Made by a program: the position numbers and the translations under genes. From Paenibacillus dendritiformis (lineage in GTDB: Bacteria > Bacillota > Bacilli > Paenibacillales > Paenibacillaceae): DNA of 64,000 nt. This document shows positions 33,128 to 54,271 of the stretch, piece by piece. Location of the stretch: NCBI RefSeq assembly GCF_945605565.1, contig NZ_OX216966.1, positions 4,022,001-4,086,000 on the forward strand. The letters are read 5' to 3'. The notes beneath the pieces were generated by a model. It was not told where the DNA came from. It did no database searches and worked only from the letters and a program-made list of their open reading frames with translations. Numbering within the stretch: position 1 is the stretch's first letter; every line of letters starts with the position of its first letter.

Positions 33128-33186
33128 CAAGAACGTATATGCTTAAAAGCCGCGTCATTTTCATTTGACAAGAAGTTGAATCATAT

Positions 33187-33557: not shown

Positions 33558-33590
33558 TTACAATGTTAAGGAATTTCCCATATTAAAAAG

Positions 33591-33624
33591 CCTAATTTCT
33601 CAACATTTGTATTGAGAAATTAGG
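33591..33624. terminator. Bidirectional terminator-like hairpin
   Basis: A perfect 13-bp stem (CCTAATTTCTCAA with TTGAGAAATTAGG) is followed by TTCTTTTC on the plus strand and preceded by AAAAAG, so it works in both directions. It suits the convergent serine hydrolase gene on the minus strand. Confidence 0.75.
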
Positions 33625-33687
33625 TTCTTTTCGTTATTCCGTTAAAGCGCCCTTTAATGGCATAACAACACATAATCCTCGATAAGA

Positions 33688-34614: not shown

Positions 34615-34919
34615 TGTAACTCTCTCCATTAAATATATATTTCTTAACAATCCTTAATTCGTATAATCCTACTAACTTGAGTAGTTTTAAATGTATGACA
34701 TATAAATTATAACATTAGTGATAACTTGTTTAAATGTAATGCTTCACAAACTTCATACCAATGTTATCAAAAATATTTTTGCTTGAGATATTAAATGGCC
34801 CTTTAATGGAATAAGGAACGATTATTGTTTCCCTTCCGACAGCTTTCTATATAATGAAGCCCTAGATATTCTTTAGTTATAAGTTTGATTGACAAAGCCT
34901 TGATTCGACTCTATATTCT

Positions 34920-34941
34920 CATATAATGTGTCACATTATAT
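34920..34941. repeat. TATATAATGTG-TCACATTATAT palindrome before a tnpA remnant
   Basis: This near-perfect palindrome contains a TATAAT box. Related sequences lie before the intact tnpA (48617-48641) and at 27654, 36887 and 54380. A hairpin followed by seven T residues (34944-34981) separates it from the tnpA remnant, as at 48.6 kb. Confidence 0.6.
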
Positions 34942-34987
34942 TGGCGCTTCCCGGTATTATCTTCGGGAGAGCCTTTTTTTATTGCCT

Positions 34988-35283
34988 ATGAATGGTGCAG
35001 TTAGGGGGAACTATGGGGAGCTGTTTCATCAATACTGTCCAGAAGAAGCAAGCAGTAAATACTCCCTAATTGTGTTCGATGATGAAAAAAAAAGGCTTTT
35101 ATACAGCTTACCGAATATTATCATCATCAAATCACAAGGATTGGTGAGAGTTCTGTTATTGCATATATCAATGTATTAGAGCCCTTTTTCTACTGGCTTA
35201 AGCATAAGAGCCAGTATCAAGGCAGAATAGTGGAGTGGAATGATGAACCAGAAGCTGTACAAGTGGCCGTAAGAGACAAGTAG
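34988..35283 (+). pseudogene. 5' fragment of a Tn554-type tnpA
   Basis: ELFHQYCPEEASSKYSLIVF parallels the N-terminus of the intact TnpA at 48687. After a frameshift it continues ESSVIAYINVLEPFFYWLKH and VEWNDEPEAVQVAVRD, then stops. The recombinase domain is gone. Base identity is lower than for the tnpB piece at 33.2 kb, so it derives from another element. Confidence 0.85.
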
Positions 35284-35340
35284 AATGGTTCCAGAATGTG
35301 GTATATTTGATGTAGTGATACTTTCTAAGTTGAGGTGCTT

Positions 35341-36666
35341 ATGAATCCTACGTTTAACACCTATATCCAATCTCTTGCCGGACGGGACGTGACCGTCATA
35401 GGGGCCGGCGTCAGCAACTCACCGCTGATCCGCATGCTGTGCTCAGCCGGGGCGCGCGTAATCGTACGCGACCGTAATCCAATCCTGCCACGGGATGAGT
35501 GGGACGAACTAGGCGTCGAGTTGCACCTAGGGGAAAGTTACCTAGATCGAGTTGGGGGCGATATAGTGTTTCGCACTCCAGGCATACGTCCAGACCATCC
35601 GGCGTTGGACTCGGCCCGCGCCGGCGGCAGCCGTGTGACCAGTGAGATGGAGGAGTTCTTCGCGTTGTGTCCCTGTCCCATTTTCGGTGTGACCGGTTCG
35701 GACGGTAAGACCACAACAACGTCACTGATCGCAGATATGCTGGGTAATGGGGGACATACGGTGCATCTGGGCGGTAACATTGGCACACCACTTCTGGCAC
35801 ACGTGGGAGAAATGTCGCCGCTGGACACGTGCGTGGTCGAGCTGTCCAGCTTCCAGTTGATGGACATGACGTGTTCTCCCCATGTAGCGGTGATTACCAA
35901 TATCTCTCCCAATCACCTCGACTGGCACCGCGACATGGATGAATATACCGCCGCGAAGCGCCGCCTGTTGAATTTTCAGAATGATGACGATCTTGCCGTT
36001 CTCAACGGTGATAATCCGGTGACCGCCTCACTGCGTGGGCGAGGGCGGACCAAGTATTTCGGAGGTCACACGATCCGCGATGGCGTGATCGACGGTCTAG
36101 TCCCAATCAATGACATTCGTTTGCCGGGGTGGTATAACGTGGAAAATGTCATGGCTGCCGTGGCCGCTATGCAGGGGATTGTGCCGGACGAGGCAATCCT
36201 AGAGACGGTTCGTACTTTCGTTGGCGTGGAGCACCGAAATCAGTGGGTTGCAACTGTGGCCGGCGTGCATTATTATAACAATTCCATCGGTTCCAGCCCC
36301 GCCCGTACCGTCTCCACACTGCATGCTCACGTGGGCCGAGTATTGCTGATCGCCGGCGGACGAGATAAGAGGGTACCGTTTGACGAGATGGCCAGGCTGC
36401 TGCCCGATCATGTCAAGGTTTTGCTGTTGATCGGCGAAGCAGCCAGTCAAATCGAGATTGAGGCGCGCAAAGTGCCGAATTGCCCACATATTATCCGCTG
36501 TGAAGGCTTGGCTGAGGCAGTGGAGCAAGCGCACAAGTTGGCCGTACCGGGTGACACTGTGCTGTTGAGCCCTGCCTGCACTGCATTTGACCAATACCGA
36601 AACTTTGAAGAGCGTGGGCATCACTTTGTAGAATTAGTCAGGCAACTGTCAGTGGAAAAAGATTGA
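35341..36666 (+). CDS. murD: MurD-type UDP-MurNAc-L-Ala:D-Glu ligase, stray copy
   Basis: The ATG at 35341 follows TTGAGGTG, giving 441 residues, the full family length. The domains are an N-terminal Rossmann fold (RDVTVIGAGVSNSPLIRML), a P-loop GVTGSDGKTTTTSLIADML, the metal Glu in VVELSSFQL and a C-terminal domain with VEHRNQWVATVAG. The family's Asn-Asp-Ser motif reads YYNNSIGSSPAR here, so the Asp is Asn. G+C is higher than in the neighbours. MurD normally sits in the division/wall cluster. A lone copy in an accessory region suggests a wall-antibiotic bypass or immunity role (inference). Confidence 0.85.
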   Translation: MNPTFNTYIQSLAGRDVTVIGAGVSNSPLIRMLCSAGARVIVRDRNPILPRDEWDELGVELHLGESYLDRVGGDIVFRTPGIRPDHPALDSARAGGSRVTSEMEEFFALCPCPIFGVTGSDGKTTTTSLIADMLGNGGHTVHLGGNIGTPLLAHVGEMSPLDTCVVELSSFQLMDMTCSPHVAVITNISPNHLDWHRDMDEYTAAKRRLLNFQNDDDLAVLNGDNPVTASLRGRGRTKYFGGHTIRDGVIDGLVPINDIRLPGWYNVENVMAAVAAMQGIVPDEAILETVRTFVGVEHRNQWVATVAGVHYYNNSIGSSPARTVSTLHAHVGRVLLIAGGRDKRVPFDEMARLLPDHVKVLLLIGEAASQIEIEARKVPNCPHIIRCEGLAEAVEQAHKLAVPGDTVLLSPACTAFDQYRNFEERGHHFVELVRQLSVEKD

Positions 36667-36782
36667 AAAATGTTTAATGTTTCATGAAGAACGTAATAAA
36701 TTCTTCGGTACCGCGTGAATAGCATGGACGTATCGTGCAGATTAGCTCTATTAACTGCCAGACTATGATAATCGGGTAAGGC

Positions 36783-36809
36783 AAGATAACGAATAAACGA
36801 TAGCTTATT
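36783..36809. repeat. ACGGG-loop palindrome, copy 1 (degenerate)
   Basis: AAGATAACGAATAAACGATAGCTTATT shape: flanking AAG/CTT arms with TAACG and CGATAGCTT kept. It lies 117 nt after the murD stop and is followed by a hairpin AGCCG/CGGCT with a T-run. Confidence 0.5.
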
Positions 36810-36886
36810 ATGAATACCGTATCAGCCGATCACATCGAGCGGCTGCTTTTTCATTGGAAGTGCTTTAAGCTAAAGCAAAAAAAACT

Positions 36887-36908
36887 TATATAATGTGACA
36901 CATCATAA
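36887..36908. repeat. TATATAATGTGACACATCATA motif
   Basis: The sequence is closely related to those at 27654, 34920 and 48617. A second copy (CATATAATGTGGCCACAT) follows at 36955 and leads into the GGACAAGAAC cluster. Confidence 0.6.
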
Positions 36909-36980
36909 AAGATCATAAAAGAAGGGGTAATTGATTAAGCAGGGAAAAACAACACATATAATGTGGCCACATCTGTCGGG

Positions 36981-37103
36981 GGACAAGAACATAGTCCCAT
37001 TGAAAGTCGCTAATTTAGCGGTTTTTTTGTTTTATCGGTACAAGTTCTTGTCCCGAGTCGAGGACAAGAACTTGTACCGATTACCGTAATGGACAAGAAC
37101 ATG
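36981..37103. repeat. GGACAAGAAC cluster with exact 19-bp inverted repeat (copy 4)
   Basis: GGACAAGAACATAGTCC (36981) is followed by a hairpin GTCGCTAATTTAGCGG and TTTTTTGTTTTAT. Then TCGGTACAAGTTCTTGTCC (37035-37053) and its exact complement (37062-37080) lie around CGAGTCGA, and a further GGACAAGAACATG is at 37091. The 48.4-kb copy has the same order. Confidence 0.85.
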
Positions 37104-37153
37104 AGCCGATTACCGATTAGATAAGTATCTAACTATGTTTCCATGCAATCTCA

Positions 37154-37179
37154 TTAAGCTAACGGGCAGGATACTTTAA
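37154..37179. repeat. ACGGG-loop palindrome, copy 2
   Basis: TTAAGCTAACGGGCAGGATA then CTTTAA: outer arms TTAA/TTAA with inner TA/TA around ACGGGCAG. Confidence 0.6.
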
Positions 37180-37282
37180 GATCATGCGAGGTGAACCGTA
37201 TCACAAGTAGATCAAATTTTTAGGCTCGGGGCGTCAAGTTTGGGGGCGGGTAAAGAAAAAGCCCCAACCAATCAAGCAGTAC

Positions 37283-37315
37283 TTCTATGCGATCGATCGA
37301 ACACAAATACTAAGT
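37283..37315. repeat. 33-bp dispersed repeat (pair with 43938-43970)
   Basis: TTCTATGCGATCGATCGA followed by ACACAAATACTAAGT. The copy at 43938 differs at two positions only. Both precede methyltransferase-like or VOC debris. The function is unknown. Confidence 0.75.
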
Positions 37316-37419
37316 CCTATCTCCTTATGCGCGTGGCCCACCGGACGGTAACTGTAAATGGAGTACTATTCGATTTACAGATCACGATATTGGAGGGACT
37401 TGTAGACTGTTGTCGAGGT

Positions 37420-37739
37420 TGAGGCCGTGGCCGAAATCCGTTTGCGCTACCGAAGGCTATCGACCGAATTTGACCGTCGCCAAGGAACGTTTGGAGCATC
37501 TAGGTGTGACTGTCCTTTCTATGGAAGATGATGAGCATCTTCCTTTTGAGACCAGCCAGTTCAATCTGGTGCTGAACAAGTACGAAGCTTATTCGCCGCG
37601 GGAGGTTCGGCAGGTGATCATCGATGGCGGCTACATCCTCACTCAACAATCGGGAGGCACTGATTGTCACGAGATCAACGAGCGATTCGGCGTGCCGTTA
37701 AATAGTGAATTTGCGTACTGGTGGCTCGTGACCGTCTGA
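37420..37739 (+). pseudogene. SAM-dependent methyltransferase fragment
   Basis: The frame shows CATEGYRPNLTVAKERLEHL, LPFETSQFNLVLNKYEAYSP and GGYILTQQSGGTDCHEINER. These are the middle parts of a class I methyltransferase. The N-terminal SAM loop and the last domain are missing. Confidence 0.65.
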
Positions 37740-37787
37740 AGGTGACATACTCTGGCGTTCTTAGGAGTGGGCGAATTCGCACAACTA

Positions 37788-37975
37788 AATTGGACGAGGT
37801 TATTAGTACTCATTTATCTGAATCTGTCGTACTATGTACAGATTACTGGCGGGCTTTCAGCTGATATGCAAGAAAAAGTAATTAGATTTAAGTCCGACGG
37901 GAAACAGCGTGTAAAGGTGTGTACCATATTCAGAATGTCAACAACTACCACAGCCGTGGAAAAACTCCTATCAAC
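37788..37975 (+). pseudogene. IS1595-family transposase fragment
   Basis: Across two frameshifts the sequence reads VVLCTDYWRAF, then EKVIRFKSDGKQRVK, then GVYHIQNVNNYHSR. The block Asp...HIQNVNNYHSR is diagnostic of IS1595/ISXO2-like DDE transposases. The rest of the element is gone. Confidence 0.75.
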
Positions 37976-37977
37976 CT

Positions 37978-38141
37978 ATTCTGAGAATAGGTACCAGAAA
38001 ATGTGGCAGTCTTTATTAACTTGCTATGAGTAATTTGGAAAATATTCAACAGCTGTGTCAGAAAGTCTCGGATATAAGTATCCAGATTACGATGGAGCCA
38101 TTACTAAGTATACGGATCATGTTTATACTTCATTAAAATGA
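37978..38141 (+). pseudogene. Aminoglycoside 6-adenylyltransferase (ANT(6)) C-terminal fragment
   Basis: ENRYQKMWQSLLTCYE, an in-frame TAA, then FGKYSTAVSESLGYKYPDYD and TKYTDHVY follow the C-terminal helix pattern of ANT(6) enzymes. TTA to TAA is the simplest cause of the stop. The catalytic N-terminal domain is absent. Confidence 0.55.
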
Positions 38142-38142
38142 A

Positions 38143-38463
38143 CTATGTAAATGACCGCCTTTTTGTGGGCGGTTTTCTTTTGAAACAAAAATCAACAACA
38201 AGTTTTAACATAGCTCTTTGAATAAAGGCATCTACTTCTTCTCTGCTTTCAGCGCCAATGGAAATTATTACTTCTGCGCTATGGGAAGCATCTGCGGTTT
38301 TCGAACCTCTGAATTTCTCAAGCGCCGCATCCGGGAACAGCAGAATGGCAAGTTTGGCTCTCTCGTTACCAACGCTCACTGCATGGAATCGAATCTCATT
38401 GAAAAAAGCAGTTGACCTCTCAACATCTTTGACCAGCAGGTTAATCCAAATCTCATGTGACAT
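38143..38463 (-). pseudogene. VOC-family protein, broken C-terminus
   Basis: The ATG at 38463 lies 8 nt after GGAGG. WINLLVKDVERSTAFF, AILLFPDAALEKF and EVIISIGAESREEVDAFIQR match YaeR/PhnB-like VOC proteins. After residue about 90 the sequence turns basic and unrelated, so the second module is lost. Confidence 0.65.
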
Positions 38464-38542
38464 GGCAGTAGCCTCCTGGAATATATTTTCAACCATTCCT
38501 ACTATACTTTACTTCTGGCAGCAGAAGTGATTCTTATAAAGG

Positions 38543-38588
38543 AAACCGCAAGGTATGACATTCCTGTCATACATCCTGCGGTTTCTTT
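38543..38588. terminator. Terminator-like hairpin
   Basis: AAACCGCA and TGCGGTTT enclose an inner stem TATGACA/TGTCATA; TCTTT follows. Confidence 0.7.
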
Positions 38589-38743
38589 AGTAAATTTATT
38601 TACTTACCTGCTCCAGGATCTTTCTGTCAAAGTATCGATCTGGCCAAGAATGGATTTCGCATCAAAGAAGAAGTTACGTTTTATGTTTTGGAGCAGAATT
38701 GGGAAAATCCAGAGGATTAACAGGATACGATAGAGGAATAAAA

Positions 38744-38782
38744 CAGCAGCAGCCTAGGACCTTAATTCCAGGGCTGCTGCTG
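38744..38782. terminator. GC-rich hairpin
   Basis: CAGCAGCAGCC pairs with GGGCTGCTGCTG over a 16-nt loop. It follows a short frame GFRIKEEVTFYVLEQNWENP ending at 38719 that could not be assigned. The 38790-38980 stretch holds no gene. Confidence 0.55.
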
Positions 38783-38992
38783 CGTCTTCGTCAACATGAT
38801 TGTTTTGTGTCATTGACATGGAACCGATGTTTGAACTCTTGCATCATTAATACGCAAGCAGACACGCCCAATTGACTGAGAGTTTCCCTCCTTTGCCACC
38901 TGAAAATTCACTCGAATTATACTCGACATTTGATTTCGATTAAAACAAACCGATTACTCGGTATGTTTTCAAGGGGGTTTTGAGCATGGCTC

Positions 38993-39022
38993 TTGACATA
39001 GTTATATTATAACTAGTAATAT
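38993..39022 (+). promoter_or_regulatory. PadR promoter with palindromic operator
   Basis: TTGACA (38993) and TAATAT (39017) are spaced by 18 nt. The spacer holds the perfect palindrome AGTTATATTATAACT. Transcription would begin at about 39029, so translation of the PadR gene may be leaderless. A frame MALDIVIL with its own ribosome site AAGGGGG begins at 38985. Confidence 0.6.
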
Positions 39023-39023
39023 T

Positions 39024-39650
39024 ATGACTATGAGAAAACTAATAAAAACACAACGTTCCCCACTAGCCATGGCCGTACTCGCACTTCTTGCAGAAGAACC
39101 CATGCACCCGTACCGAATACAGCAGCTCATCAAAGAAAGAGGAAAGGATCAAATAATTAACGTTCGCCAGCGTACGAGTATTTACCAAACCATTGAGCGT
39201 CTACTGCGGGACGGACAGATTTCTGTTAAAGAAACGTTGCGGGAAACCGGAAAACCAGATCGAACTGTCTATGAAGCAACTAAGGAAGGAAGAGAAATAT
39301 TAATAGAATGGCTTCGTGAGGTGCTATCTACACCAATACAGGAGTTTCCTAATTTCCCAGTTGCAATATCGTATATCAGTATATTGTCACCGCAAGATGC
39401 CCTAGAGAAACTCGAGCAAAGGTTAGATGTATTAGAAAAAACAATACATCAGATCGATAATAATCTCCAAACCTACAAGAGTATCATTCCAAGACTGTTT
39501 ATGCTGGAATCTGAATATCAAAAGGCGGTATTAGCAGCAGAATTGGAATGGGTTCGTTCTGCCAGCGAGGATATCAGGAATGGCTCCCTCTTCTGGAACG
39601 ATGAGTGGCTCCGTGATATTTCGGAGCGACTGACCAGCAAAGAGGAGTAA
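39024..39650 (+). CDS. PadR-family transcriptional regulator
   Basis: The protein has 208 residues (206 from the ATG at 39030, which better fits the promoter). The winged helix is SPLAMAVLALLAEEPMHPYR, QRTSIYQTIERLLRDGQI and RTVYEATKEGREILIEWLRE. A C-terminal coiled-coil dimerisation part follows. PadR proteins repress efflux or detoxification genes until a ligand binds. The palindrome in its own promoter and the MFS/glycosyltransferase genes downstream make it the likely local repressor. Confidence 0.88.
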   Translation: MTMRKLIKTQRSPLAMAVLALLAEEPMHPYRIQQLIKERGKDQIINVRQRTSIYQTIERLLRDGQISVKETLRETGKPDRTVYEATKEGREILIEWLREVLSTPIQEFPNFPVAISYISILSPQDALEKLEQRLDVLEKTIHQIDNNLQTYKSIIPRLFMLESEYQKAVLAAELEWVRSASEDIRNGSLFWNDEWLRDISERLTSKEE

Positions 39651-39690
39651 TTTTCAAAAAATGAAGAGAATTATTAAGGAGGAGTTTCGC

Positions 39691-40194
39691 ATGATAAACA
39701 AAGATGTAACAGCAAAGGAATGGATTTAACCAAAAGCGACTTGAAAAATTCTGATCTTCAAGCAACAGACCTAATACGGAAAGTTTGACTATAGTAATCT
39801 GAAAGCAACTGATTTTAGTCAATCTGATTTAACAGGGTGTTCCTTTAAATGCAGTAACTTGGAGGACGCTGTATTTGATGGTGCCAATTTGAATGAGGCT
39901 ATATTCGATAAATCCGACTTGAGGGGAGCAAGCTTTAAAGAATGCACGTTAGACAACGCTAAGATATGGATGTGCAATGTATCCGGCATAAGTTTTGATA
40001 ACTTGACGTTGAAAGGTGCTAAATTTGATTATTCCGACTTAAAAGACGCATCTTTCCGAAATGCCTTTTTAATCAATGTATCATTCAAATCGGAACTAAA
40101 AAAAGTGATTTTTGATGGTGCAACGATGGAAAAAGTGACGTATGCGATACTAAAAGGAAATAAAGCAAACCTTGATCATGTAAAGGTCATATAA
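39691..40194 (+). pseudogene. Pentapeptide-repeat protein, frameshifted
   Basis: The start MINKDVTAKE has a ribosome site (AAGGAGG). Frame changes near 39715 and 39780 interrupt MDLTKSDLKNSDLQATDL. From about 39783 the repeats run clean: DYSNLKATDFSQSDLTGCSF, then AFDGANLNEAIF-like units to a stop at 40194. Each unit fits A(D/N)LXX. Qnr and McbG proteins of this fold protect gyrase, but this relative need not. A TTG at 39859 could restart a short product. Confidence 0.75.
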
Positions 40195-40220
40195 CAAGCC
40201 TACTTCGGAGGAGCACTATC

Positions 40221-41762
40221 GTGAAACGAAAAAAGAGTAACTTAGGCATCGTCATTGCAGGACTTTTACTTGGTATTTTAATGGGGTCAATGGATAACAC
40301 CATAGTCGCAACTGCTATGGGCACTATCGTCGGTGAGCTTGGAGGGTTAGACAAATTTGTTTGGGTTACATCGGCCTATATGATTGCTGAATTGGCCGGC
40401 GTACCGATATTCGGCAAGCTGTCAGATATGTATGGTCGCAAAAGATTTTTCGTTTTTGGTCTTTTAGTATTTATGATAGGTTCGGCTTTGTGCGGGACAG
40501 CGGGTTCCATAACGGAACTGGCGCTATACCGCGCTATTCAAGGTATCGGCGCAGGAGCCATCATTCCAATCGCTTTTACAATCATGCTTGACGTTGTTCC
40601 GTTTGAATCGCGCGGCAAATTTGGTGGCATCTTTGGTTCCATTTTCGGTTTATCGAGCATATTTGGACCGCTGCTCGGCGCGTACATTACCGACCATATC
40701 AAATGGCAATGGATATTCTACATTAACCTGCCTGTAGGCGTACTGGCGGTTTTAATGATTGTGCTTTTTTACAAAGAATCGCACGAGCATTCGAAGCAAC
40801 CAATCGATTGGGTTGGTGCGTTTACACTTATTGGTGCAGTCGTCTGCCTGATATTCACGCTGGAGCTTGGGGGCAAACAGTATGCATGGGACTCCGCTGC
40901 TATTTTGGGACTATTCGCCGGGTTTATCCTGTTAGCGATTGCGTTTCTTATTACCGAGGCAAAGGTAAAGGAACCAATAATTTCGTACAGCTTGTTCAAA
41001 AACCGTTTGTATACAACAAGCATCCTAATTTCCTTATTTAGCAGTGCAGCGTTCATCGTCGCTTCAGTATACATGCCAATTTTTATTCAAGGTGTTTTTG
41101 GGGGGAAAGCAACGGATTCCGGACTTGTGCTGCTCCCTATGATGCTTGCCTCTGTCGTGACTGCAATGATTGGCGGTTTTGTGATAACTAAAGTACCGTA
41201 TAGAAATGTTATGATTTCAACTTTGCTTGTGTTAGTCGCCGGTGTTGTGCTTGCATCGACCCTTAAGAGTGATTCGACACGATGGTTAATTACATTAAGC
41301 ATGATTTTAATTGGATCGGGTATCGGATCGTCGTTTTCTGTGCTTGGCAATGCTGTCATTCACGGAGTAGTGGCGAGACAACGGGGAACTGCGAACTCCA
41401 CACTTACATTTATTCGTTCGCTTGGCATGACTATCGGAATAACGACGTTCGGCATTATTCAAAGCCAGCTGTTTTCGAATAAATTGGCGAATTATCTTCA
41501 ATCCATGGGTGATAAAGATCCACGATTGCCAAAAGGTCTTGACATGAAAGACCCGCATATACTGCTTTCACCGGAAGCGCGTGAACACATTCCGCACGAA
41601 ATTTTGGACCAAATTAAGAACATGCTTTCCGACTCGATTACGCATACGTTCGCATGGGCGATTATTCCCGCTGCTCTTGCATTTTTCATCTCCTTTTATA
41701 TGGGACGATCGAAGCTTGATGCGTCTGCAAATGCGGATGAAGAATATGTTGCAGGATATTAA
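40221..41762 (+). CDS. MFS multidrug exporter, DHA2 (EmrB/QacA) type
   Basis: The GTG start follows CGGAGGAG, giving 513 residues and 14 predicted membrane helices. Motif D1 is LGILMGSMDNTIVATAMGTI, motif A is GKLSDMYGRKRFF, and the antiporter motif C is in GSIFGLSSIFGPLLGAYITD. The long loop before the last helix carries LSPEAREHIPHEILDQIKNM. This family expels drugs and cationic dyes by proton antiport. It sits between a PadR regulator and a macrolide-type glycosyltransferase. Confidence 0.9.
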   Translation: MKRKKSNLGIVIAGLLLGILMGSMDNTIVATAMGTIVGELGGLDKFVWVTSAYMIAELAGVPIFGKLSDMYGRKRFFVFGLLVFMIGSALCGTAGSITELALYRAIQGIGAGAIIPIAFTIMLDVVPFESRGKFGGIFGSIFGLSSIFGPLLGAYITDHIKWQWIFYINLPVGVLAVLMIVLFYKESHEHSKQPIDWVGAFTLIGAVVCLIFTLELGGKQYAWDSAAILGLFAGFILLAIAFLITEAKVKEPIISYSLFKNRLYTTSILISLFSSAAFIVASVYMPIFIQGVFGGKATDSGLVLLPMMLASVVTAMIGGFVITKVPYRNVMISTLLVLVAGVVLASTLKSDSTRWLITLSMILIGSGIGSSFSVLGNAVIHGVVARQRGTANSTLTFIRSLGMTIGITTFGIIQSQLFSNKLANYLQSMGDKDPRLPKGLDMKDPHILLSPEAREHIPHEILDQIKNMLSDSITHTFAWAIIPAALAFFISFYMGRSKLDASANADEEYVAGY

Positions 41763-41846
41763 GGAGTTTTGCAAAATGAACTGCATACCCGCTGCAGTCA
41801 AAATTAAATATTGTCTAAAATGACTCAAATAGGAGGTCGTAAAGCA

Positions 41847-43118
41847 ATGGCAAAATTTTTAATCAGTACGATGCCTGCTACTGGACATGTAAATCCAATC
41901 CTGACAACTGCAACGAAAATGGTTGAAGAAGGGCATCAAGTAGTATGGCATTCAGGACCGGCAATGGAAGAGAAAATAAAAGCCACCGGAGCAAGTTTTG
42001 TTCCATTCAAGCATACGCCCGATATTATCGAAAGTGCGGTAGATAAACAGGAAAAGGGCCTTGCTGCAGCAAATGCTGCTGTGACAAGCTTATTCGTCGA
42101 CCCCATGCTTGGCCAGATGAAAGATTATCAGGAGATTATAAAAGACTTCCCTGCAGATGTATTAATTGTTGACATGTGTAGTCTGGGAGCTTACCTTTTT
42201 CATGAAAAAGGAGGTCCGGTTTGGGCAAGCATAGGAATGATTCCTTTGAGAACCGAAGAAAGCGCCATGCATGGATCTGGAAAACCTCCCGCTAAAAGTG
42301 CTCTTGGAAGGCTTAACAATCGTATAATAAATTGGATCGGGACACACGTTATGTTAAAAGATGTTACTAAAAAAATGATTAACGATCTTAGAAGTATAAA
42401 AGGGCCTGACATCCCTAAAGGTAAAACCGCTTTTGATTGTCTTATGTCTCCATTCTTGCATCTACATGGCACAACAGCAGCATTTGAATATCCATATAAG
42501 GAACTCCCATCTCAACTTCACTATGTTGGACCTATGCTACCTCCAATGCCCACAGACTTCATACCTCCCAAATGGTGGTCAGAGCTTAGCTCAGGCAAGC
42601 CTGTCGTTCATGTAACTCAAGGGACGGTTGCTACGGATGTTGAAGAACTGACACTGCCGACAATTAGGGCAATGGCGGATGAGAATGTACTTGTTGTCGT
42701 TACTACGCCAAATCCAGAAAAACTGGGGAACGTACCGGGCAATGTACGTGTAGAGCGCATGATCCCACATTCTATCCTGCTTCCCTATGTTGATGTTATG
42801 GTTACTAATGGTGGATTTAATGGTGTCAAGGTCGCACTATCCCATGGCGTTCCTCTTGTGGCGGCAGGGATTCTATCCGATCAACCCGAAGTGTGTGGTC
42901 GTATTGAATACTTCGGTGCAGGGGTTAATCTTAAAACCAGTACCCCAAGCAGTTCTCAATTAAAGGAAGCTATATTAAAGGTACTAAAAGAGCCAGCTTA
43001 TCGTAGCAAAGCAAAAGTCATTCAGTCAGATTTTGCTTCCCATGATAGTGCAATGGAAGCGGTACGATTGCTTGAACGTCTAGCGAAAACAAAAAAGGCT
43101 GTTCTTCGGGAAGCTTAA
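41847..43118 (+). CDS. MGT/UGT-type glycosyltransferase
   Basis: The ATG at 41847 follows TAGGAGG (423 residues). The GT-B fold shows FLISTMPATGHVNPILTTAT at the N-terminus and HSILLPYVDVMVTNGGFNGV, then LSHGVPLVAAGILSDQPEVC, in the sugar-nucleotide domain. It resembles macrolide glycosyltransferases and YjiC-like enzymes that inactivate macrolides or flavonoids. With the MFS exporter 85 nt upstream it forms a drug-modifying and expelling pair. Confidence 0.87.
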   Translation: MAKFLISTMPATGHVNPILTTATKMVEEGHQVVWHSGPAMEEKIKATGASFVPFKHTPDIIESAVDKQEKGLAAANAAVTSLFVDPMLGQMKDYQEIIKDFPADVLIVDMCSLGAYLFHEKGGPVWASIGMIPLRTEESAMHGSGKPPAKSALGRLNNRIINWIGTHVMLKDVTKKMINDLRSIKGPDIPKGKTAFDCLMSPFLHLHGTTAAFEYPYKELPSQLHYVGPMLPPMPTDFIPPKWWSELSSGKPVVHVTQGTVATDVEELTLPTIRAMADENVLVVVTTPNPEKLGNVPGNVRVERMIPHSILLPYVDVMVTNGGFNGVKVALSHGVPLVAAGILSDQPEVCGRIEYFGAGVNLKTSTPSSSQLKEAILKVLKEPAYRSKAKVIQSDFASHDSAMEAVRLLERLAKTKKAVLREA

Positions 43119-43194
43119 TAATATTGTTTAGTCAATAATAGCCTCTACAGAAAAAATAAATCAGGTGGTATTAAATGGAGATTCGCCAACACGA

Positions 43195-43689
43195 TAGACT
43201 GCGCCCACACAGACCGTGTACTGCAGCATGTCGCCAGACCAGGAGAAGTACTGGCTGAAATCCACCGGGTGCTTCGCCCTGGGGGGAGAATTGTCCTCGC
43301 TGAGCCGGATTGGGATACGCTAATTATTGACTATCCCGACCTCTTGGTAGCGCGAGCCTATACTCGTTTTGTAACAGACATCGTCGTACAGAATGCTTGC
43401 ATCGGGCGTCAACTTGCCGGGATGGCGAAGCGTTCTGGCTTCGATGTTGCGAAGGTGATACCCGTCACGACCGTATTCGAGGACGTCTCCGAGGCGGATA
43501 AAATTTTTGGTATCTACCGTGTGACGGAACGTGCTGTTGCTGCAGGGTACATGGAAGCCGATGTGGCCCGAATGTGGAGAGATCTATAGAAGATTGCGTC
43601 AAGATACCGAAGGACTGATACGCAAGGAAGAAGCTGAGCAAGCTGCGATAGTATATCTCGATTCGGTATACGATAGCGTGCGTAAATGA
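43195..43689 (+). pseudogene. SAM-dependent methyltransferase, 3' part
   Basis: DCAHTDRVLQHVARPGEVLA, EIHRVLRPGGRIVLAEPDWD and FGIYRVTERAVAAGYMEADV represent the second half of a UbiE-like methyltransferase. A one-nucleotide shift at about 43589 leads to a tail ending at 43689. The SAM-binding start is missing. Confidence 0.7.
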
Positions 43690-43824
43690 TATCTGGTTGC
43701 TAAGACCTATTGGAATGCTTCCTGATGGACCAAATCAAGATAGAGTTTTATTTTTAAAACATTTGAAGGAATAGTTTCTTTTTTATCTATCAGGTGCTAG
43801 AGGTCACGAATGTATAATCATTAC

Positions 43825-43911
43825 ACAAATAACTGAAATTGCCGAAGGCGGAGTGTATGCTTCGTTTGAGGACTAGGAAGGTAATATCGTCAATATTGTT
43901 GGAGACAGGTA
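43825..43911 (+). pseudogene. VOC-family C-terminal fragment
   Basis: QITEIAEGGVYASFED, a TAG, then EGNIVNIVGDR is the closing strand of a VOC protein. Only 29 codons remain; the 5' flank to 43690 is too decayed to assign. Confidence 0.5.
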
Positions 43912-43937
43912 GTGACTGTATGAAATGAGAGGAGTAT

Positions 43938-43970
43938 TTCTATGCGATCGATCGAGCACGAATACTAAGT
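43938..43970. repeat. 33-bp dispersed repeat (pair with 37283-37315)
   Basis: TTCTATGCGATCGATCGA, then GCACGAATACTAAGT; two differences from the other copy. Confidence 0.75.
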
Positions 43971-44049
43971 TGGAGAAAAAGGATTGACCAGGAAAGATTT
44001 TCTCGGTGAGGCTGGGGTCTATCGAATGAAGTTTTAGTTTATTGGTCGC

Positions 44050-44073
44050 TAAGCTAACGGGCAGTTTAGCTAA
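44050..44073. repeat. ACGGG-loop palindrome, copy 3
   Basis: TAAGCTAACGGGCAGTTTAG then CTAA: arms AGCTAA/TTAGCT around CGGGCAG. Confidence 0.6.
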
Positions 44074-44139
44074 TGTTAAGAAATTGCAAAAATACTTAAA
44101 CGTCCTTTTAAGTTTATATGGGGGCCTTAGAATAATCCT

Positions 44140-44945
44140 TCAGTATTGTGTTTTGATTTTCTCGGTCAAAGTATTGATAATTCTAATAAGTTCCGAATCC
44201 TGAAGAATTAACTTCATTATTTTATCATGTGTATGAATTATTGTAGTATGATCACGTCCTCCAAATGCTTCCCCAATTTTCGGTAATGAGGAATCTGTGA
44301 GTTCTCTGGAGAGGTACATTGCAACCTGTCTCGGTATGGCCACTGCTTTTGTTCGCTTGCGCTCCTTCAATACTTCAGGTCGCAACCCATAATATTCTGC
44401 TACATATTGCTGGATCTTAGGAATTGTCACAACTTGTGGGGGACAGGAGAGAATAATATCTTTTAAAGCATCTACTGCTAATTCAACGCTAATTTCCTGG
44501 CTAACTAGAGTAGAAAATGCAACAACACGAATGAGAGCACCTTCTAACTCACGAACATTTGAGTTGATATTGCTTGCAATGTATACCATTGCTTCATAGG
44601 GAATATGAATCATTCTCTGCCTGAGCTTTTTTTAACAAAATTGCAATTCTCGTTTCAAGATCTGGAGGCTGAATATCTGTTAATAGACCCCATTCGAAGC
44701 GTGATCGTAATCTTTCTTCTAATGTTTGAATTTCTTTAGGCTTCCTATCACTTGAGATAATAATAGCTTTGCCTTCCTCTAAAAGAGAATTAAATGTGTG
44801 GAAGAACTCTTCTTGCGTTTGTTCTTTACCAGCAATGAATTGAATGTCATCAACCAATAGAACATCAATAATTCGATACTTACTTCGAAAAGCTTCACCG
44901 CGGTTATTCATAATCGCATTGATAAATTCATTAGTCGCTCATCAT
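44140..44945 (-). pseudogene. dnaA: Truncated and frameshifted dnaA
   Basis: The minus strand begins inside the AAA+ domain ([16 protein letters not shown]). It continues [20 protein letters not shown] (Walker B), [10 protein letters not shown] and [20 protein letters not shown], then shifts frame near 44605. The remainder runs to the C-terminal DnaA-box binding domain SRELTDSSLPKIGEAFGGRD with HTTIIHTHDKI. Walker A and the N-terminal domain are absent. No recN/gyr-type origin neighbours or DnaA-box cluster is seen. It is a stray remnant, not the replication origin locus. Confidence 0.85.
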
Positions 44946-45077
44946 CAAGGACGATCCGTATGAGAAGCGCAACGTAGCGGAAAGCGGAAATGCGTTTCTG
45001 TGATGTTGAAGTCGTTCCCCATTTATAACTCGATTTGCATGCCGCCGGCTGACAAACAAATCCGTTTGTGTTGTCAC

Positions 45078-45093
45078 GTGACTATAAAGTCAC
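45078..45093. promoter_or_regulatory. GTGACT-ATAA-AGTCAC dyad
   Basis: A perfect 6-bp dyad within a promoter-like stretch (TTGTCACG ... TTAAAAT) resembles MerR-type operators. No intact gene lies downstream. Confidence 0.35.
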
Positions 45094-45168
45094 CTTAAAA
45101 TGTGTTACCGTACAGTACCGGTGTCAAGCGGCTCAAATCATTTTTGTTAGATCACCCGAGAAGACGGT

Positions 45169-45325
45169 GTGACGTTCGGCCGACCCAGGCAAGGAATTGA
45201 TGAAAAGTTTATGCGAGCTTATCAGGAAGGGAGGCCGAATAACGGCAACGGAGGCCATGCGGCAGAGTGGCATGACAAAACCGACTTTTTACCGGCGCAA
45301 TATAAGTTTCAAAAATCCCAATGTT
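45169..45325 (+). pseudogene. Serine recombinase (resolvase) C-terminal HTH fragment
   Basis: VTFGRPRQGIDEKFMRAYQE shifts frame into RITATEAMRQSGMTKPTFYR. This is the helix-turn-helix tail of a resolvase/invertase. The catalytic domain is missing. Confidence 0.7.
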
Positions 45326-45414
45326 CCATTTACAAAAATATATTCGGAACTTTGTCATTTGAGAGAATGGAGGGTTTATCGGTCTAATGTGGAATAATTC
45401 CATATTGAGGGCGG

Positions 45415-45443
45415 ATTAACATAACGGGTAGTTTACTTCAATC
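45415..45443. repeat. ACGGG-loop palindrome, copy 4
   Basis: GATTAACATAACGGGTAGTT then TACTTCAATC: GATT/AATC outer arms and a kept AACGGG loop. Confidence 0.45.
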
Positions 45444-45488
45444 CGCAAGTTTTATTTAGAACAATTTGATAAATGATCGGAAGTGACT

Positions 45489-45772
45489 AATGAACATTCG
45501 TATGTTGAATGACTCTGATGCCCAAGTGTATAGAGAAGTAAGGTTGCGTGCATTGAAAAAATGACCCCGATGCATTCGGATCAACGTATGAGCAAGAAGA
45601 AACTAAACCACTGGGGCACATTATAGAAAGGATACACCATACAAAAGATCAATTTACATTGGGATGTTTTGACGACAGTAACAAATTAGTTGGCATTGTC
45701 AATTTTTCACGTGAAAACAGGCTTAAGACGGCACATAAAGGAAACATTTACGGTATGTACGTAGAGCTGCCC
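45489..45772 (+). pseudogene. GNAT acetyltransferase fragment, frameshifted
   Basis: MNIRMLNDSDAQVYREVRLR, a frameshift, then FGSTYEQEETKPLGHIIERI and GCFDDSNKLVGIVNFSRENR, then YGMYV. This is the start of a GNAT protein, cut before the acetyl-CoA loop. 45773-46020 is GC-rich and unassigned. Confidence 0.7.
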
Positions 45773-46039
45773 CCGATCGGCGCTTCCGGATCCGCTCGTT
45801 CTGCCGTCGCGCAGCGTGGACCTGACTTGCGGCCACCACCTCAACTAGGTGATTCGATCGCTCTCTAGATCCGGCCGTTTCGTTCGCTGCGCTGGCCGGC
45901 GTGAGACGGCCATAGTCGCCGTTCTCTCCATGACATATTGTCGGATCATATCGTGGAATGGTCTTTGGCTCATAACGGTCCGGCTAAACGTGAAAAGGAT
46001 CAATAACAATTTAGATAGGACGAGAATTGCAATGAATTG

Positions 46040-46069
46040 TTAAGCTCTAACGGGAAACAGTAGATTTAA
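46040..46069. repeat. ACGGG-loop palindrome, copy 5
   Basis: TTAAGCTCTAACGGGAAACA then GTAGATTTAA: TTAA outer arms, loop ACGGGAAAC. Confidence 0.55.
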
Positions 46070-46101
46070 GTAATCAATGAGACGAAGAGGGGGAAACCGA
46101 A

Positions 46102-46557
46102 ATGAAGACGATCAAGTGCATGATGGACCACCTGTACTGGGCGGACGGATGCATCTTGGACGCGTTTTAAGGAGAGTGAGACGAAGAACAAGGACCTTCT
46201 GAAGCTGGTTCGGCACCTAGCAGTCGCGGAACGAGTCTGGCTGTCCCGATTGCAGAGCAAAAGCAGCGCGCAATATTCGTTGTGGGAGGAAGCGGAAGAC
46301 CTGACGGCGATCCGGACGATGTTCGAAGAAAACGTCGAGCAATATCGCGTCTATATCGAAGGACTCGAGGAATCCGAGTTGGACGAGATGATCGACTATG
46401 CGAACCAGAGCGGGGTTCCGTTCCGAACGTCCGTCCGGGACATCCTGTTGCAGGTCCTCTTACATGGGCAATATCATCGGGGACGATCAACCGGGCACTT
46501 CGGATCGAATCGGCAGAGCCTGTCCAAGTCGATTACATCACGTTCGCGAGGCTTTAA
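46102..46557 (+). pseudogene. DinB-family protein with two frameshifts
   Basis: MKTIKCMMDHLYWADGCILD has a GAGGGGG ribosome site and then shifts frame at about 46168. It continues LLKLVRHLAVAERVWLSRLQ, EESELDEMIDYANQSGVPFR and LLQVLLHGQYHRG, and shifts again before RALRIESAEPVQVDYITFAR. The metal-binding His (DHLYW, HLAVAE, HGQYHRG) are all present. Recent decay, or sequencing error, should be considered. Confidence 0.8.
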
Positions 46558-46597
46558 TGGGGCCTAATAATCACCATTACTCGGAATGGGATTGGCA

Positions 46598-46624
46598 TTG
46601 AACTAACGGGAAACGATAGTTCAA
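46598..46624. repeat. ACGGG-loop palindrome, copy 6 (best formed)
   Basis: Exact 8-bp arms TTGAACTA and TAGTTCAA surround ACGGGAAACGA. A GGCTGCC-type terminator follows directly. Confidence 0.75.
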
Positions 46625-46632
46625 TGAAAAAA

Positions 46633-46654
46633 AGGGCTGCCGAGTGGCAGCTCT
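46633..46654 (+). terminator. Terminator-like hairpin
   Basis: AGGGCTGCC pairs with GGCAGCTCT (one G-T pair) and is followed by ATTTC. It is placed after palindrome copy 6, as also seen after copy 8. Confidence 0.6.
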
Positions 46655-46717
46655 ATTTCCCGCTAACGGTTAATATAGTCGATAAGTAGGGATATCAACG
46701 GGAGGAATCTCCTCGTT

Positions 46718-46742
46718 GCGCTAACGGGCAGGGTAGTTGAAC
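46718..46742. repeat. ACGGG-loop palindrome, copy 7
   Basis: GCGCTAACGGGCAGGGTAGT then TGAAC. A hairpin AACGGGAGG/CCTCGTT lies just before it. Confidence 0.5.
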
Positions 46743-46935
46743 ATAACTGTGAATGATGTTCATTGTCTAAAAACGCATCCTTAATATCACAATTATGAGA
46801 CTCTATACTTTTGAGTTATAATCCAATTGTATTTCGGTATAATATGATTGTTTAAAATACTGTTTGACTGGTGATTGAACATTTGATAAGATGGCGTAAT
46901 ACCCTTTTCAGGGTCATAATTTAGGGGTGATATCC

Positions 46936-47727
46936 ATGCCTTTACAAATGCATGAAGATTTTATTAACCTAGCCAAAGAAAAACTTCGTGAGGACTATCG
47001 TTTACTTGGACTTCTTGCAGGGGGTTCCATGATTACAGGTTTTATGGATGAGTACAGCGACTTGGATTTAATTGTTGTATACGATGCCAGATACCGAGAA
47101 GAGATAATGGATTACCGCATTCAAATTGCAGAGAAACTAGGAAGTTTATTGTCTGCCTTTACAGGTGAACATGTGGGAGAGCCACGATTAATTATTTGCT
47201 TGTATGGAGCGCCGCCATTACACGTTGATTTAAAGTTTGTTACTGTTCAAGAACTTGAACAAAGGGTTGAGAATCCAATTATCCTTTGGGAGAGAGGCGC
47301 AGAAATAAGTGAATTAATTCAAAGAACATCACCGAGCTATCTATACTCTAGTCCCCAATGGATCGAGGATCGATTTTGGGTATGGGTGCATTATGGTGCG
47401 ACAAAACTGGGAAGAGGAGAATTATTCGAGTTAATCGATCACCTTACCTATATGCGAAGCTCAGCGCTTGGACCACTGTTTCTTATCAAAAACGGTGAAC
47501 TTCCAACAGGAGTAAGAAGACTCGAAAAATATGTGAGCGAAGAACTTGAAGAACTAAAGGAAACTGTTCCAAACCATAGTACAGAGAGTTGTTACCACGC
47601 TTTACAAATGACCATTCGGCTATATCAACAACTTCGTCAACATGTAGGGAATATCGAATATAAAAAAGAGGCGGAACAAGTTTCAGTTGCTTACCTTGAA
47701 GCTGTTTACTCCTCTTTAGATAAATAG
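46936..47727 (+). CDS. Nucleotidyltransferase-domain protein (antibiotic NTase-like)
   Basis: The ATG at 46936 follows AGGGGTG (263 residues). The GSMITGFMDEYSDLDLIVVY motif is the GS...D-x-D metal site of the pol-beta nucleotidyltransferase fold, and HVDLKFVTV gives the third acidic residue. The helical C-terminal half resembles those of lincosamide/aminoglycoside nucleotidyltransferases. The substrate is unassigned. It is intact, monocistronic, and followed by palindrome copy 8 and a strong terminator. Confidence 0.82.
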   Translation: MPLQMHEDFINLAKEKLREDYRLLGLLAGGSMITGFMDEYSDLDLIVVYDARYREEIMDYRIQIAEKLGSLLSAFTGEHVGEPRLIICLYGAPPLHVDLKFVTVQELEQRVENPIILWERGAEISELIQRTSPSYLYSSPQWIEDRFWVWVHYGATKLGRGELFELIDHLTYMRSSALGPLFLIKNGELPTGVRRLEKYVSEELEELKETVPNHSTESCYHALQMTIRLYQQLRQHVGNIEYKKEAEQVSVAYLEAVYSSLDK

Positions 47728-47786
47728 ACAAATCATTTTGTTAAAAAGCGACGGTAATCGCATTAAAAATATGAAATATAAGTAAT

Positions 47787-47813
47787 TCAAGTAACGGGAC
47801 ACGATAGCTTAAA
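47787..47813. repeat. ACGGG-loop palindrome, copy 8
   Basis: TTCAAGTAACGGGACACGAT then AGCTTAA; it runs straight into the terminator at 47811. Confidence 0.55.
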
Positions 47814-47849
47814 ACGCGGCTGCCGGCATATATCGGCAGCCGCGTTTTA
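47811..47849. terminator. Strong bidirectional terminator
   Basis: AAAACGCGGCTGCCG and CGGCAGCCGCGTTTT are exact inverted arms of 15 bp with GCATATAT between them. Confidence 0.85.
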
Positions 47850-47871
47850 CCCAAAGTTGAGGGACGATTAT

Positions 47872-48363
47872 ATGAATCAACAGCTGATTAAGTTCAAGAT
47901 TGACAATGTATCTTTTGAACTTCAGGATCAGCACGATTTCACATGGCTTCAATCTATTGGTAATGTTTTTTGTGTGTTTGATCAGCAAAATTCTGGTAAC
48001 ATTAGTTTCGGAATCGAAAAGAACGGTAAAAAGCTATTTGTTAAATACGCGGGTTGTAGACCATTGGAGTTTTCCGGAAACCCTAGAGATGCAATTTCTA
48101 GGTTAAAGGTTGCCGTGCCGGTGTATAAGACATTAGAACGTCCGAATCTCATTAGACTTATTGATCATTTTGAAACGAAAGATGGGTATGCTGCTATATT
48201 TGAATGGTTTAATGGCGAATGCCTGCATTCACATTGGTTGTTTGCCGATCCACCAAAACATACTCATCCTGAATCGCCTTTCTACAGATTCAAACAGTTA
48301 TCCATAGAGAAAAGGTTGCAGTCAAATCAGTATGCAGAAGAAATGGGTAAATCTAAATCATAA
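47872..48363 (+). pseudogene. Serine/threonine protein kinase-like gene, 3' truncated
   Basis: The ATG lies 5 nt after a GAGGGACG ribosome site. An atypical kinase N-lobe is seen: FCVFDQQNSGNISFGIEKNG, KLFVKYAG (ATP-site Lys) and PNLIRLIDHFETKDGYAAIF with EWFNGECLHSH. The catalytic HxDxxxxN loop never appears. After residue about 155 the frame turns into a short tail and stops just before the GGACAAGAAC cluster of the transposon. Truncation by that insertion is the simplest reading. Confidence 0.7.
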
Positions 48364-48396
48364 AAAGAGGGTGAAGATAAAACGAAAATTGTCGAG

Positions 48397-48491
48397 GGAC
48401 AAGAACATGGTCCCATTGAAGTCGCTATTTTAGCGACTTTTTTATTTTATCGGTACAAGTTCTTGTCCTTTAACGGTACATGTTCTTGTCC
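48397..48491. repeat. GGACAAGAAC cluster next to the tnp genes (copy 5)
   Basis: GGACAAGAACATGGTCC (48397) is followed by a terminator (GTCGCTA/TAGCGAC plus TTTTTTATTTTAT). Then come CGGTACAAGTTCTTGTCC (48451) and ACGGTACATGTTCTTGTCC (48473). The order equals that at 36981, but here the inverted partner is a second direct copy. Confidence 0.85.
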
Positions 48492-48542
48492 TCCGACAAC
48501 ATCATATAAAAACCCTTGATATGCAAGGGATATTGTCTCATC

Positions 48543-48563
48543 ATAGACATATGTACAAAATAC
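48543..48563. repeat. Left copy of exact 21-bp direct repeat (candidate element boundary)
   Basis: ATAGACATATGTACAAAATA plus C; the identical 21 bp occurs at 54434-54454 in the same orientation. The two copies bracket tnpA-tnpB-tnpC, a T-box and a nucleotidyltransferase gene (about 5.9 kb). Confidence 0.65.
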
Positions 48564-48616
48564 TATATAATATTAATTTCTAAGTTCTGTTGACGAGTCT
48601 ATGTTTCTGCTGTATT

Positions 48617-48680
48617 TTCATATAGTGTTACACATCATATGTGGACATCCGTTTCATTGAAACGGAAATGTCCTTTTTTT
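48617..48680 (+). promoter_or_regulatory. tnpA promoter motif and terminator-type hairpin
   Basis: TTCATATAGTGTTACACATC contains a -10-like box. It is followed by GGACATCCGTTTC pairing with GAAACGGAAATGTCC and seven T residues, ending 7 nt before the tnpA start codon. A hairpin in this place could damp read-through into the recombinase genes. The same arrangement precedes the tnpA remnant at 34988. Confidence 0.6.
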
Positions 48681-48686
48681 GTGTAA

Positions 48687-53296: not shown

Positions 53297-53405
53297 AATG
53301 ATTCTTGAAGTCTGACGACCCTTTCCCTACGGTCACATAAGCCTATCGGTCTCGTGAATACCAGGACGTTAGCCGAAAGAAGTTCTAAATTTAGGAGGAG
53401 TCTAT

Positions 53406-54176: not shown

Positions 54177-54271
54177 CACCATATTGACGCTCCGGGTCAC
54201 ACTGAGAAGCGAGTGACCACATCCAGCCCCTAAGTCCGTCGGGACATCAAAAAAATAATTGTAAGAAGACA

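Follow-up and report, generated by a model that had tools for sequence, protein, structure and literature searches.

The 64,000 nt of Paenibacillus dendritiformis analysed here (contig NZ_OX216966.1, positions 4,022,001-4,086,000, forward strand; hereafter the window) contain, between 36.8 and 47.8 kb, eight copies of a short, imperfectly palindromic sequence that lie beside single genes or gene pieces, among them a murD-like gene, a DinB-like gene and a nucleotidyltransferase gene (Table 1). An initial annotation had described them as palindromes around an ACGGG loop in an array of gene-plus-hairpin units, and had proposed either a recombination site not recognised before or a mobile terminator or miniature inverted-repeat transposable element (MITE). 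The present analysis deals with these sites, with the arrays that they form in related bacteria and with a tyrosine recombinase encoded in those arrays.

All eight copies are present on the plus strand, within a few bases of the positions first reported. The site measures 28-30 bp and has imperfect inverted arms, ATTNAACTAAC and GATAGTTNAAT. When a profile is built from other genomes only (191 strict sites in the 38 loci L056-L093), without the window, it recovers seven of the eight with scores of 10.6-36.3; the TAAC of these copies starts at 37160, 44055, 45422, 46048, 46604, 46722 and 47792. Copy 1 (36787, TAACGAATAAACGATAG) is degenerate and falls under the profile threshold; it is supported by its position, 3′ of murD and ahead of a terminator-like hairpin. 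In the alignment of the eight, TAACGGG is kept in seven copies and reads TAACGAA in copy 1. The centres are of two types: GGGAAAC or GGGACAC in the A type (copies 5, 6 and 8, and the degenerate copy 1), GGGCAG or GGGTAG in the B type (copies 2, 3, 7 and 4). Copies 5 to 8 display the order DinB, A, hairpin, B, nucleotidyltransferase, A, hairpin.

The repeat is confined to this part of the window, as first noted: no further position of the 64 kb scores 12 or more, save the minus-strand reading of the palindrome at 47792 (12.7), and after merging of matches lying up to 20 bp apart nothing besides the copies reaches 9. In shuffled windows, 20 shuffles gave 0-3 matches each at a score of at least 10, and five shuffles gave none at 19 or above. 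Elsewhere in the same genome there are at least two lone A-type copies (G000:C1:546938 and 6541784), and the strict pattern defined below has two matches in this genome. The simpler pattern taken from the first description (TTNAANTA...ACGGG, one mismatch) was discarded as unspecific, because in this genome its reversed control matches at least as often as the pattern itself (90 versus 74).

As for the palindrome and its loop, the kept centre with two arms was found again, now as TAACGGG and in two types, but only copy 6 folds strongly (z -7.4, a value that includes the adjoining hairpin). A plain hairpin or RNA element was rejected, given weak folds in most window copies, weak covariation among the eight and a blank Rfam result: for positions 33000-52000 there were three matches up to E 1, all below the gathering score and none at any copy. 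Imperfect inverted arms for protein binding describe the structure better than a palindrome does, and the ACGGG “loop” corresponds more plausibly to the spacer of a dif-like site than to the loop of a hairpin. The hairpins described behind copies 1, 6 and 8 are there, and they are terminator-like.

Table 1. Sites, hairpins and associated genes of the window
Feature	Position	Strand	Basis or remark
murD segment	35322-36642		86% identical to a segment of array L090, which has a site 135 bp past its end; copy 1 lies ~150 bp past
Copy 1, degenerate A-type, 3′ of murD-like gene	36780..36809	+	below profile threshold
Terminator-like hairpin after copy 1	36823..36845	+	folding
Copy 2, B-type (GGGCAG centre)	37153..37180	+	profile score 32.7
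Copy 3, B-type	44048..44075	+	profile score 26.7
dnaA-like fragments, copies 3-4	44140..44911	-	name from reading of frames
Copy 4, B-type, 5′ border of GNAT gene piece	45415..45442	+	profile score 19.7
Copy 5, A-type with arm insertion, 5′ border of DinB gene	46041..46069	+	profile score 10.6
DinB-like gene, frame apparently disrupted	46070..46596	+	site-bordered unit in other genomes
Copy 6, A-type, perfect palindromic arms	46597..46625	+	profile score 36.3
Terminator-like hairpin, copies 6 (A) to 7 (B)	46633..46654	+	folding
Copy 7, B-type	46715..46742	+	profile score 34.8
Nucleotidyltransferase gene (Adenyl_transf / NTP_transf_2)	46927..47727	+	most complete B-gene-A unit of the window
Copy 8, A-type	47785..47813	+	profile score 27.9
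Terminator-like hairpin after copy 8	47810..47849	+	folding

Site family, arrays and shared segments in related genomes

The strict site pattern, CTAACGGGNAN{3,4}TAGTT, was searched together with its reversed form as control in a family sample of 295 genomes and in an order sample of 296 genomes. In the family it gave 922 matches in 180 genomes, the reversed control giving 0-4 per genome. In the order, 197 genomes had matches, mainly from families f1 and f6, plus the sole genome of f2; f7 showed single matches, which is the control level, and f3-f5 and f8-f11, each sampled by few genomes, showed none. The maximum was reached in G294, a fragmented assembly with local duplications, which has 84 strict matches and 224 with a looser pattern (control 21); the 29 matches listed for its contig 51 lie within 49.8 kb, all on the same strand. 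Arrays are found on large, chromosome-sized contigs of Bacillota (G137, G145, G219), and the orientation of the sites is uniform across tens of kb of array.

The core derived from 183 sites (95 A, 88 B) reads ATTNA(A/G)CTAAC, followed by GGGTAC, GGGAAAC or GGGCAG and then by (G/T)(A/T)TAGTTNAAT; conservation drops outside it. The arm-spacer-arm geometry is 11-6-11, which is that of dif-like sites, for the B and the short A type, and 11-7-11 for the long A type. A survey at profile score 9 covered 79 loci of 41 genomes (1.386 Mb) and returned 796 sites. In 173 pairs the two sites are separated by 45-130 bp; A is followed by B in 151 of these, the reverse order never occurs, and 22 are A-A or partly untyped, while 104 close pairs are spaced 68-72 bp. 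The stretch between the sites of a pair folds at -8 kcal/mol or below for 150 of the 171 pairs examined but for just 33 of 168 random 40-mers used as control, and the form of the hairpin suggests a terminator. More distant neighbours define 483 intervals of 200-3000 bp (median 809 bp); a dominant open reading frame (ORF) is present in 406 and lies on the site strand in 365, and these 406 run from B to A (184), A to A (77), A to B (49) or B to B (46). Taken together, pair order and interval types give B - gene - A - hairpin - B as the usual unit, with many gaps where a site is absent or under threshold.

The content of the arrays was sampled by a Pfam scan of 70 cassette proteins drawn from a shuffled list of 277. 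Within the first 25 of 82 families tallied, there were four APH-like kinases, three each of Nudix, GNAT and cupin proteins, two each of GyrI-like, Cass2, pentapeptide, DinB and HD proteins, and families found once, DnaA among them; one or two cassette proteins matched each of four anti-phage defence models. The DnaA domain, found in one of the 70 scanned ORFs, is probably that of L090:13188-14540, to judge from a 76% DNA match.

Segments are shared between genomes from site to site. The 79 loci were compared with each other, keeping matches of at least 75% identity and at least 200 bp and leaving out the recombinase regions (n=117). Match ends lie within 50 bp of a site in 138 of 450 cases (31%); when the site positions were rotated 200 times as a control, the share averaged 5.4% and never exceeded 10.2%. 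Some of these loci belong also to the training set of the profile, from which the window was kept out. Because sites lie between genes, the test was repeated with intergenic ends only: 34 of 71 ends lie within 25 bp of a site at 90% identity or more (expected 7.1) and 15 of 24 at 95% or more (expected 2.4), the ends not being fully independent. The clearest case is a 1,532 bp segment, 99.4% identical in genomes of different genera (G025 and G137), which starts inside a B site, ends inside an A site and has unrelated flanks; a second shared cassette, of ~580 bp (G025, G259, G207), runs from a B centre over the gene to the next B centre. In the mean of 52 site pairs, the left arm follows the left neighbour and the right arm the right one, some single pairs being noisy, and this places the break within TAACGGG. 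With types assigned by nearest site, 43 of the 52 breakpoints join like with like (A/A or B/B), 4 join A with B and 5 are untyped, so that A appears to pair with A, and B with B. Overall, the initial interpretation holds in part: its proposal of an array of gene-plus-hairpin units around a recombination site is supported, as across genomes the sites flank single genes in nearly one orientation and homology breaks there. Copies are not randomly placed, and the neighbours of shared segments vary between genomes.

The window takes part in this sharing. Positions 45415-45767 are 97.7% identical to 7649-8000 of a locus of Bacillus sp. FJAT-28004 (L219), both segments starting 12 bp before the site reference point, and 43970-44061 are 89% identical to 5474-5565 of the same locus, with a site at the end in both; 44248-44935, overlapping the dnaA-like fragments, are 96% identical to 3051-3736 of L067 (G025). 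The DinB gene (46058-46570) has a DNA match in 88 of the 295 family genomes, and among 30 loci fetched for it a site lies exactly at -19 in nine, the window locus included, and at +43 or +44 in seven.

Two further observations concern genes near the array. A nucleotidyltransferase gene at 53365-54249, behind the recombinase operon described below, has no sites; it is 97% identical to genes of Paenibacillus sp. H1-7 (L231) and PL91 (L266), which have sites 66 bp before and 76-77 bp after. A 41 bp direct repeat (37275-37315 and 43930-43970; 90% identical), containing TTCTATGCGATCGATCGA, flanks a block of efflux pump and glycosyltransferase genes.

The array-encoded recombinase

A scan of the array loci for the tyrosine-recombinase signature gave two candidates, of 363 aa and ~280 aa. 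The former, located beside a G294 array, was rejected: it is rare (10 of 295 genomes), and 2 of its 15 loci have a site of the TAACGG(G/A) type close by, one poor match being left uncounted. The ~280 aa protein, searched with its C-terminal 148 residues as query at E<=1e-38, is present in 43 of the 295 family genomes; in named genomes, the best 80 of 188 stretches come mostly from Paenibacillus, and also from Brevibacillus, Cohnella, Bacillus sp. and one Bacilli metagenome-assembled genome. Nine copies retain without exception the catalytic R, K, H-x-x-R, H and Y that characterise tyrosine recombinases, here taken to be R138, K162/K165, H229, R232, H255 and Y264. The protein scores 185.5, 184 and 181 bits with the XerC, XerD and XerA family models, all under their own cut-offs; the closest solved structures by sequence are XerD and an XerC-like protein, while IntI4 is matched by the C-terminus.

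The gene is embedded in the arrays in a regular manner. Of the 35 copies with an N-terminus, 29 have a site 63-78 bp before the first query residue, which puts it ~84-99 bp ahead of the aligned ATG; it is usually of the A type, and a conserved leader lies between site and ORF. Downstream, a site is found 46-56 bp past the last codon in 23 of 43 copies with a C-terminus, and in 17 of 30 loci the stop is followed by a GC-rich stretch and CTAAAGGG (not CTAACGGG), which corresponds to a B-like left half and then variable sequence. Sites on the recombinase strand outnumber opposite ones by 345 to 8 in 40 loci fetched for the gene, which represent 34 genomes and of which 34 have none opposite, and by 649 to 13 in 80 named loci, which partly repeat the same genomes. 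Moreover, 40 of the 43 genomes with the recombinase have sites (mean 9.1), as compared with 140 of the 252 without it (mean 2.1). Position, strand and co-occurrence suggest that this recombinase acts on the sites.

The initial annotation had noted that an integrase is missing; this holds for the genome of the window, which has no match to the array recombinase at E<=1e-38, but relatives encode one within their arrays. Since no recombinase of this family is found in the genome and some of the genes are decayed, the integrase-less array of the window is likely an old one, no longer served from its own genome. Carriage by plasmids or phages was dismissed, as at E<=1e-40 the 72,556 plasmid records searched yielded 9 with a match and the 50,697 phage records 3, all of them relatives of less than 60% identity. 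Relatives of ~50% identity are found on Bacillaceae/Planococcaceae plasmids (L307, NZ_CP011009.1; L308, NZ_CP146247.1), one of which has a second recombinase gene close by.

In summary, 28-30 bp sites of the A and B types border single genes in arrays of Paenibacillus and related bacteria, and the Xer-type recombinase that many arrays of relatives encode likely moves these genes as cassettes, by cleavage and rejoining at TAACGGG. In this scheme the recombinase would bind the arms of the site and exchange strands within the spacer, A sites recombining with other A sites and B sites with other B sites. An exchange between two B sites would carry the gene together with A and the hairpin, while separate B and A exchanges would carry the gene alone; the hairpin would insulate transcription between neighbouring cassettes. 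The modules A - integrase - hairpin - B and A - hairpin - B have the same kind of ends, hence the short composite may derive from the integrase module by shortening.

Alternative explanations

Several findings count against this reading. Two of the window copies (1 and 5) are degenerate, and another (4) is missing some arm bases. For only 9 of the 117 matches is there a site within 90 bp of every one of the four ends, an A site is joined to a B site in 4 of 52 breakpoint pairs, and the loci were selected for site density or recombinase presence, match ends and genomes being mutually non-independent. DinB genes of 90-94% identity are without a detectable site within 1.5 kb in 10 of the 30 loci, so that the same gene occurs both with and without sites. 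At the threshold used, the upstream site is missing in 6 of 35 recombinase copies and the downstream one in 20 of 43; 3 of the 43 recombinase genomes are without a strict site, and 140 of 252 genomes bear sites and no recombinase at E<=1e-38, including site-rich ones (G246 with 27 matches, G177 with 22, G065 with 20, G239 and G152 with 18 each), implying that the enzyme may be lost, diverged, supplied otherwise, or another one. Finally, 15 of the 17 genomes with TnpA, the first protein of the Tn554-like operon adjoining the window array, have sites, in slightly higher numbers (p 0.03).

The last point leads to the enzymes that lie closest to the window array. Two tyrosine recombinases are encoded directly downstream of it (48687-52189), the second just under the Pfam cut-off, and with a small third protein they form an operon (48687-52634, plus strand) which matches Phage_integrase only and resembles the tnpA-tnpB-tnpC order of Tn554. 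These genes are 0.9 kb from copy 8, and a repeat block from upstream of them recurs just before B sites in other genomes; however, TnpA is found in only 17 of 295 genomes and the trio in none of 38 fetched array loci of other genomes, so it was rejected as the enzyme of the sites, a role that we regard as highly improbable. A role of the host XerC and XerD at these sites, like the one they have in the dif modules of Acinetobacter, would make the array recombinase a mere passenger. It would agree with the 11-6-11 geometry, with the outer arm GTTNAAT, which is also found in the XerD arm TTATGTTAAAT of pdif sites (PMC13141974), and with the many site-bearing genomes in which the array recombinase is not found at the cut-off. 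Yet the recombinase has a site at near-constant distance and in the same orientation in 29 of 35 copies, its presence accompanies higher site numbers, and the sites are in direct rather than alternating orientation, which leaves the host enzymes an unlikely explanation. Unlikely too, if a shade less so, is that the genes stay put and A-hairpin-B is a non-autonomous derivative of A-integrase-hairpin-B that inserts 3′ of genes. The idea of a mobile terminator or MITE retains the resemblance of the short unit to a shortened integrase module: the two share their kind of ends, the sequence beyond A-left and B-right varies among copies of the module, and short units are near-constant in length. It fails to explain whole genes that are common to genera from B centre to A centre or from B centre to B centre with differing flanks, and it sits poorly with a single orientation kept over tens of kb.

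The fourth alternative is a true integron, in which an integrase of the IntI family works on folded single-stranded attC sites. Arrays in one orientation with cassette-like genes fit it, as do the “integron-associated effector binding protein” domain in 2 of 70 cassette proteins and the boxes RTTNARC and GTTNAAY, which resemble RYYYAAC and GTTRRRY. Against it, the recombinase reaches 89.6 bits with the integron integrase model (cut-off 265) versus 185.5 with XerC, and is therefore not IntI; its residues 15-187 match positions 10-181 of the integron-integrase profile and a C-terminal piece of a relative matches 240-302, leaving ~20 residues where the profile has ~59, a gap that we assume to be the IntI insert. 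Furthermore, the A-left:B-right stem appears in only 44 of 173 minimum-energy folds (RNA energies), and its two strands show no covariation (the variable base has a z of -0.7). A mechanism on single strands like that of attC is therefore not supported, and attC-like pairing of A with B was dropped for want of covariation. A true integron is accordingly very hard to credit.

Other features were noted in and around the window. Pieces of the Tn554-like trio lie on the minus strand at 33163-33557 and 34988-35290 (decayed first two genes, on one side of the array) and at 54559-54981 (the third, on the other side). A GGACAAGAAC-type repeat block (36974-37170 and 48390-48498 of the window) stands ahead of tnpA and recurs immediately before B sites in the arrays of three other genomes, G145, G246 and G295 (L057, L058, L060, L074); the Tn554-like elements may insert at the composite site or travel with it. 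The plus-strand sequence at ~52760-53030, ending in AGGTGGTAACACGG and a terminator-like stretch, looks like a T-box leader; over the stretch that was read, no gene for an aminoacyl-tRNA synthetase was recognised behind it. Positions 1-1480 (minus strand) hold a collagen-like gene with long GPQGDQ-type repeats, in which other frames are open too.

Relation to integrons and dif modules

Sites and recombinase together are best read as a gene-cassette system that uses dif-like sites and an Xer-like integrase of its own, and that has converged on the plan of integrons and of the dif modules of Acinetobacter. No description of such a system appeared among the papers listed for Paenibacillus together with repeats, integrons, cassettes, MITEs or dif modules, subscription papers and preprints falling outside coverage. 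Integrons are the textbook platform of gene capture and very rare in Firmicutes: IntegronFinder 2.0 reports a single complete Firmicutes integron, in Limnochorda pilosa, plus a few clusters of attC sites lacking integron integrases (CALIN) (PMC9024848), and an integron review counts Firmicutes among the integron-bearing phyla. We lean slightly towards a further step, namely that the arrays constitute a second, independently evolved integron: a chromosomal platform of Bacillota with a mobile Xer-derived integrase and paired double-stranded A and B sites framing a terminator, in which genes could move with or without the terminator through B x B or A x A exchange. If this is true, a large cassette system in bacteria of the Paenibacillus type would imply that evolution reached this solution at least twice, in this case starting from Xer/dif, and what a cassette system requires (a folded site, a terminator, or just two spacer types) would become testable. 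The array genes, which include APH-like, GNAT, nucleotidyltransferase and Nudix genes, are common to genera at up to 99% identity, and the system might account for single-gene islands and contig breaks in these genomes.

Compared with a MITE and its autonomous partner, the arrays have A-hairpin-B ends like those of the integrase-bearing unit, but here the intervening genes are shared as well and the breaks fall within the sites. The Acinetobacter pdif modules come closest in mechanism; with them the arrays have in common 28 bp sites of 11-6-11 geometry, a similar outer arm, genes carried as modules and site-centred exchange. The pdif modules are plasmid-borne, use XerC/XerD and need alternating site orientation (PMC13141974), whereas here 345 of 353 sites have the same strand relative to the recombinase. 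Unlike pdif, moreover, the arrays have two alternating spacer types with a terminator-like hairpin between A and B, and hold a recombinase inside the array on chromosome-sized contigs of Bacillota. As in integrons, the arrays consist mostly of single genes in one orientation, each closed by a composite site that contains a hairpin; a tyrosine recombinase is likewise present, the DNA shared across genera is delimited by cassettes, and the cassette content is similar (GNAT, NUDIX, Cass2, DinB, APH-like). An attI-like site near the integrase gene has its counterpart in 29 of 35 copies, yet the gene points along the array and not away from it. The arrays differ from integrons in a recombinase that is Xer-like and under the IntI cut-off, whose gene lies inside the array on the same strand, and in a composite site of which either half is a complete dif-like core.

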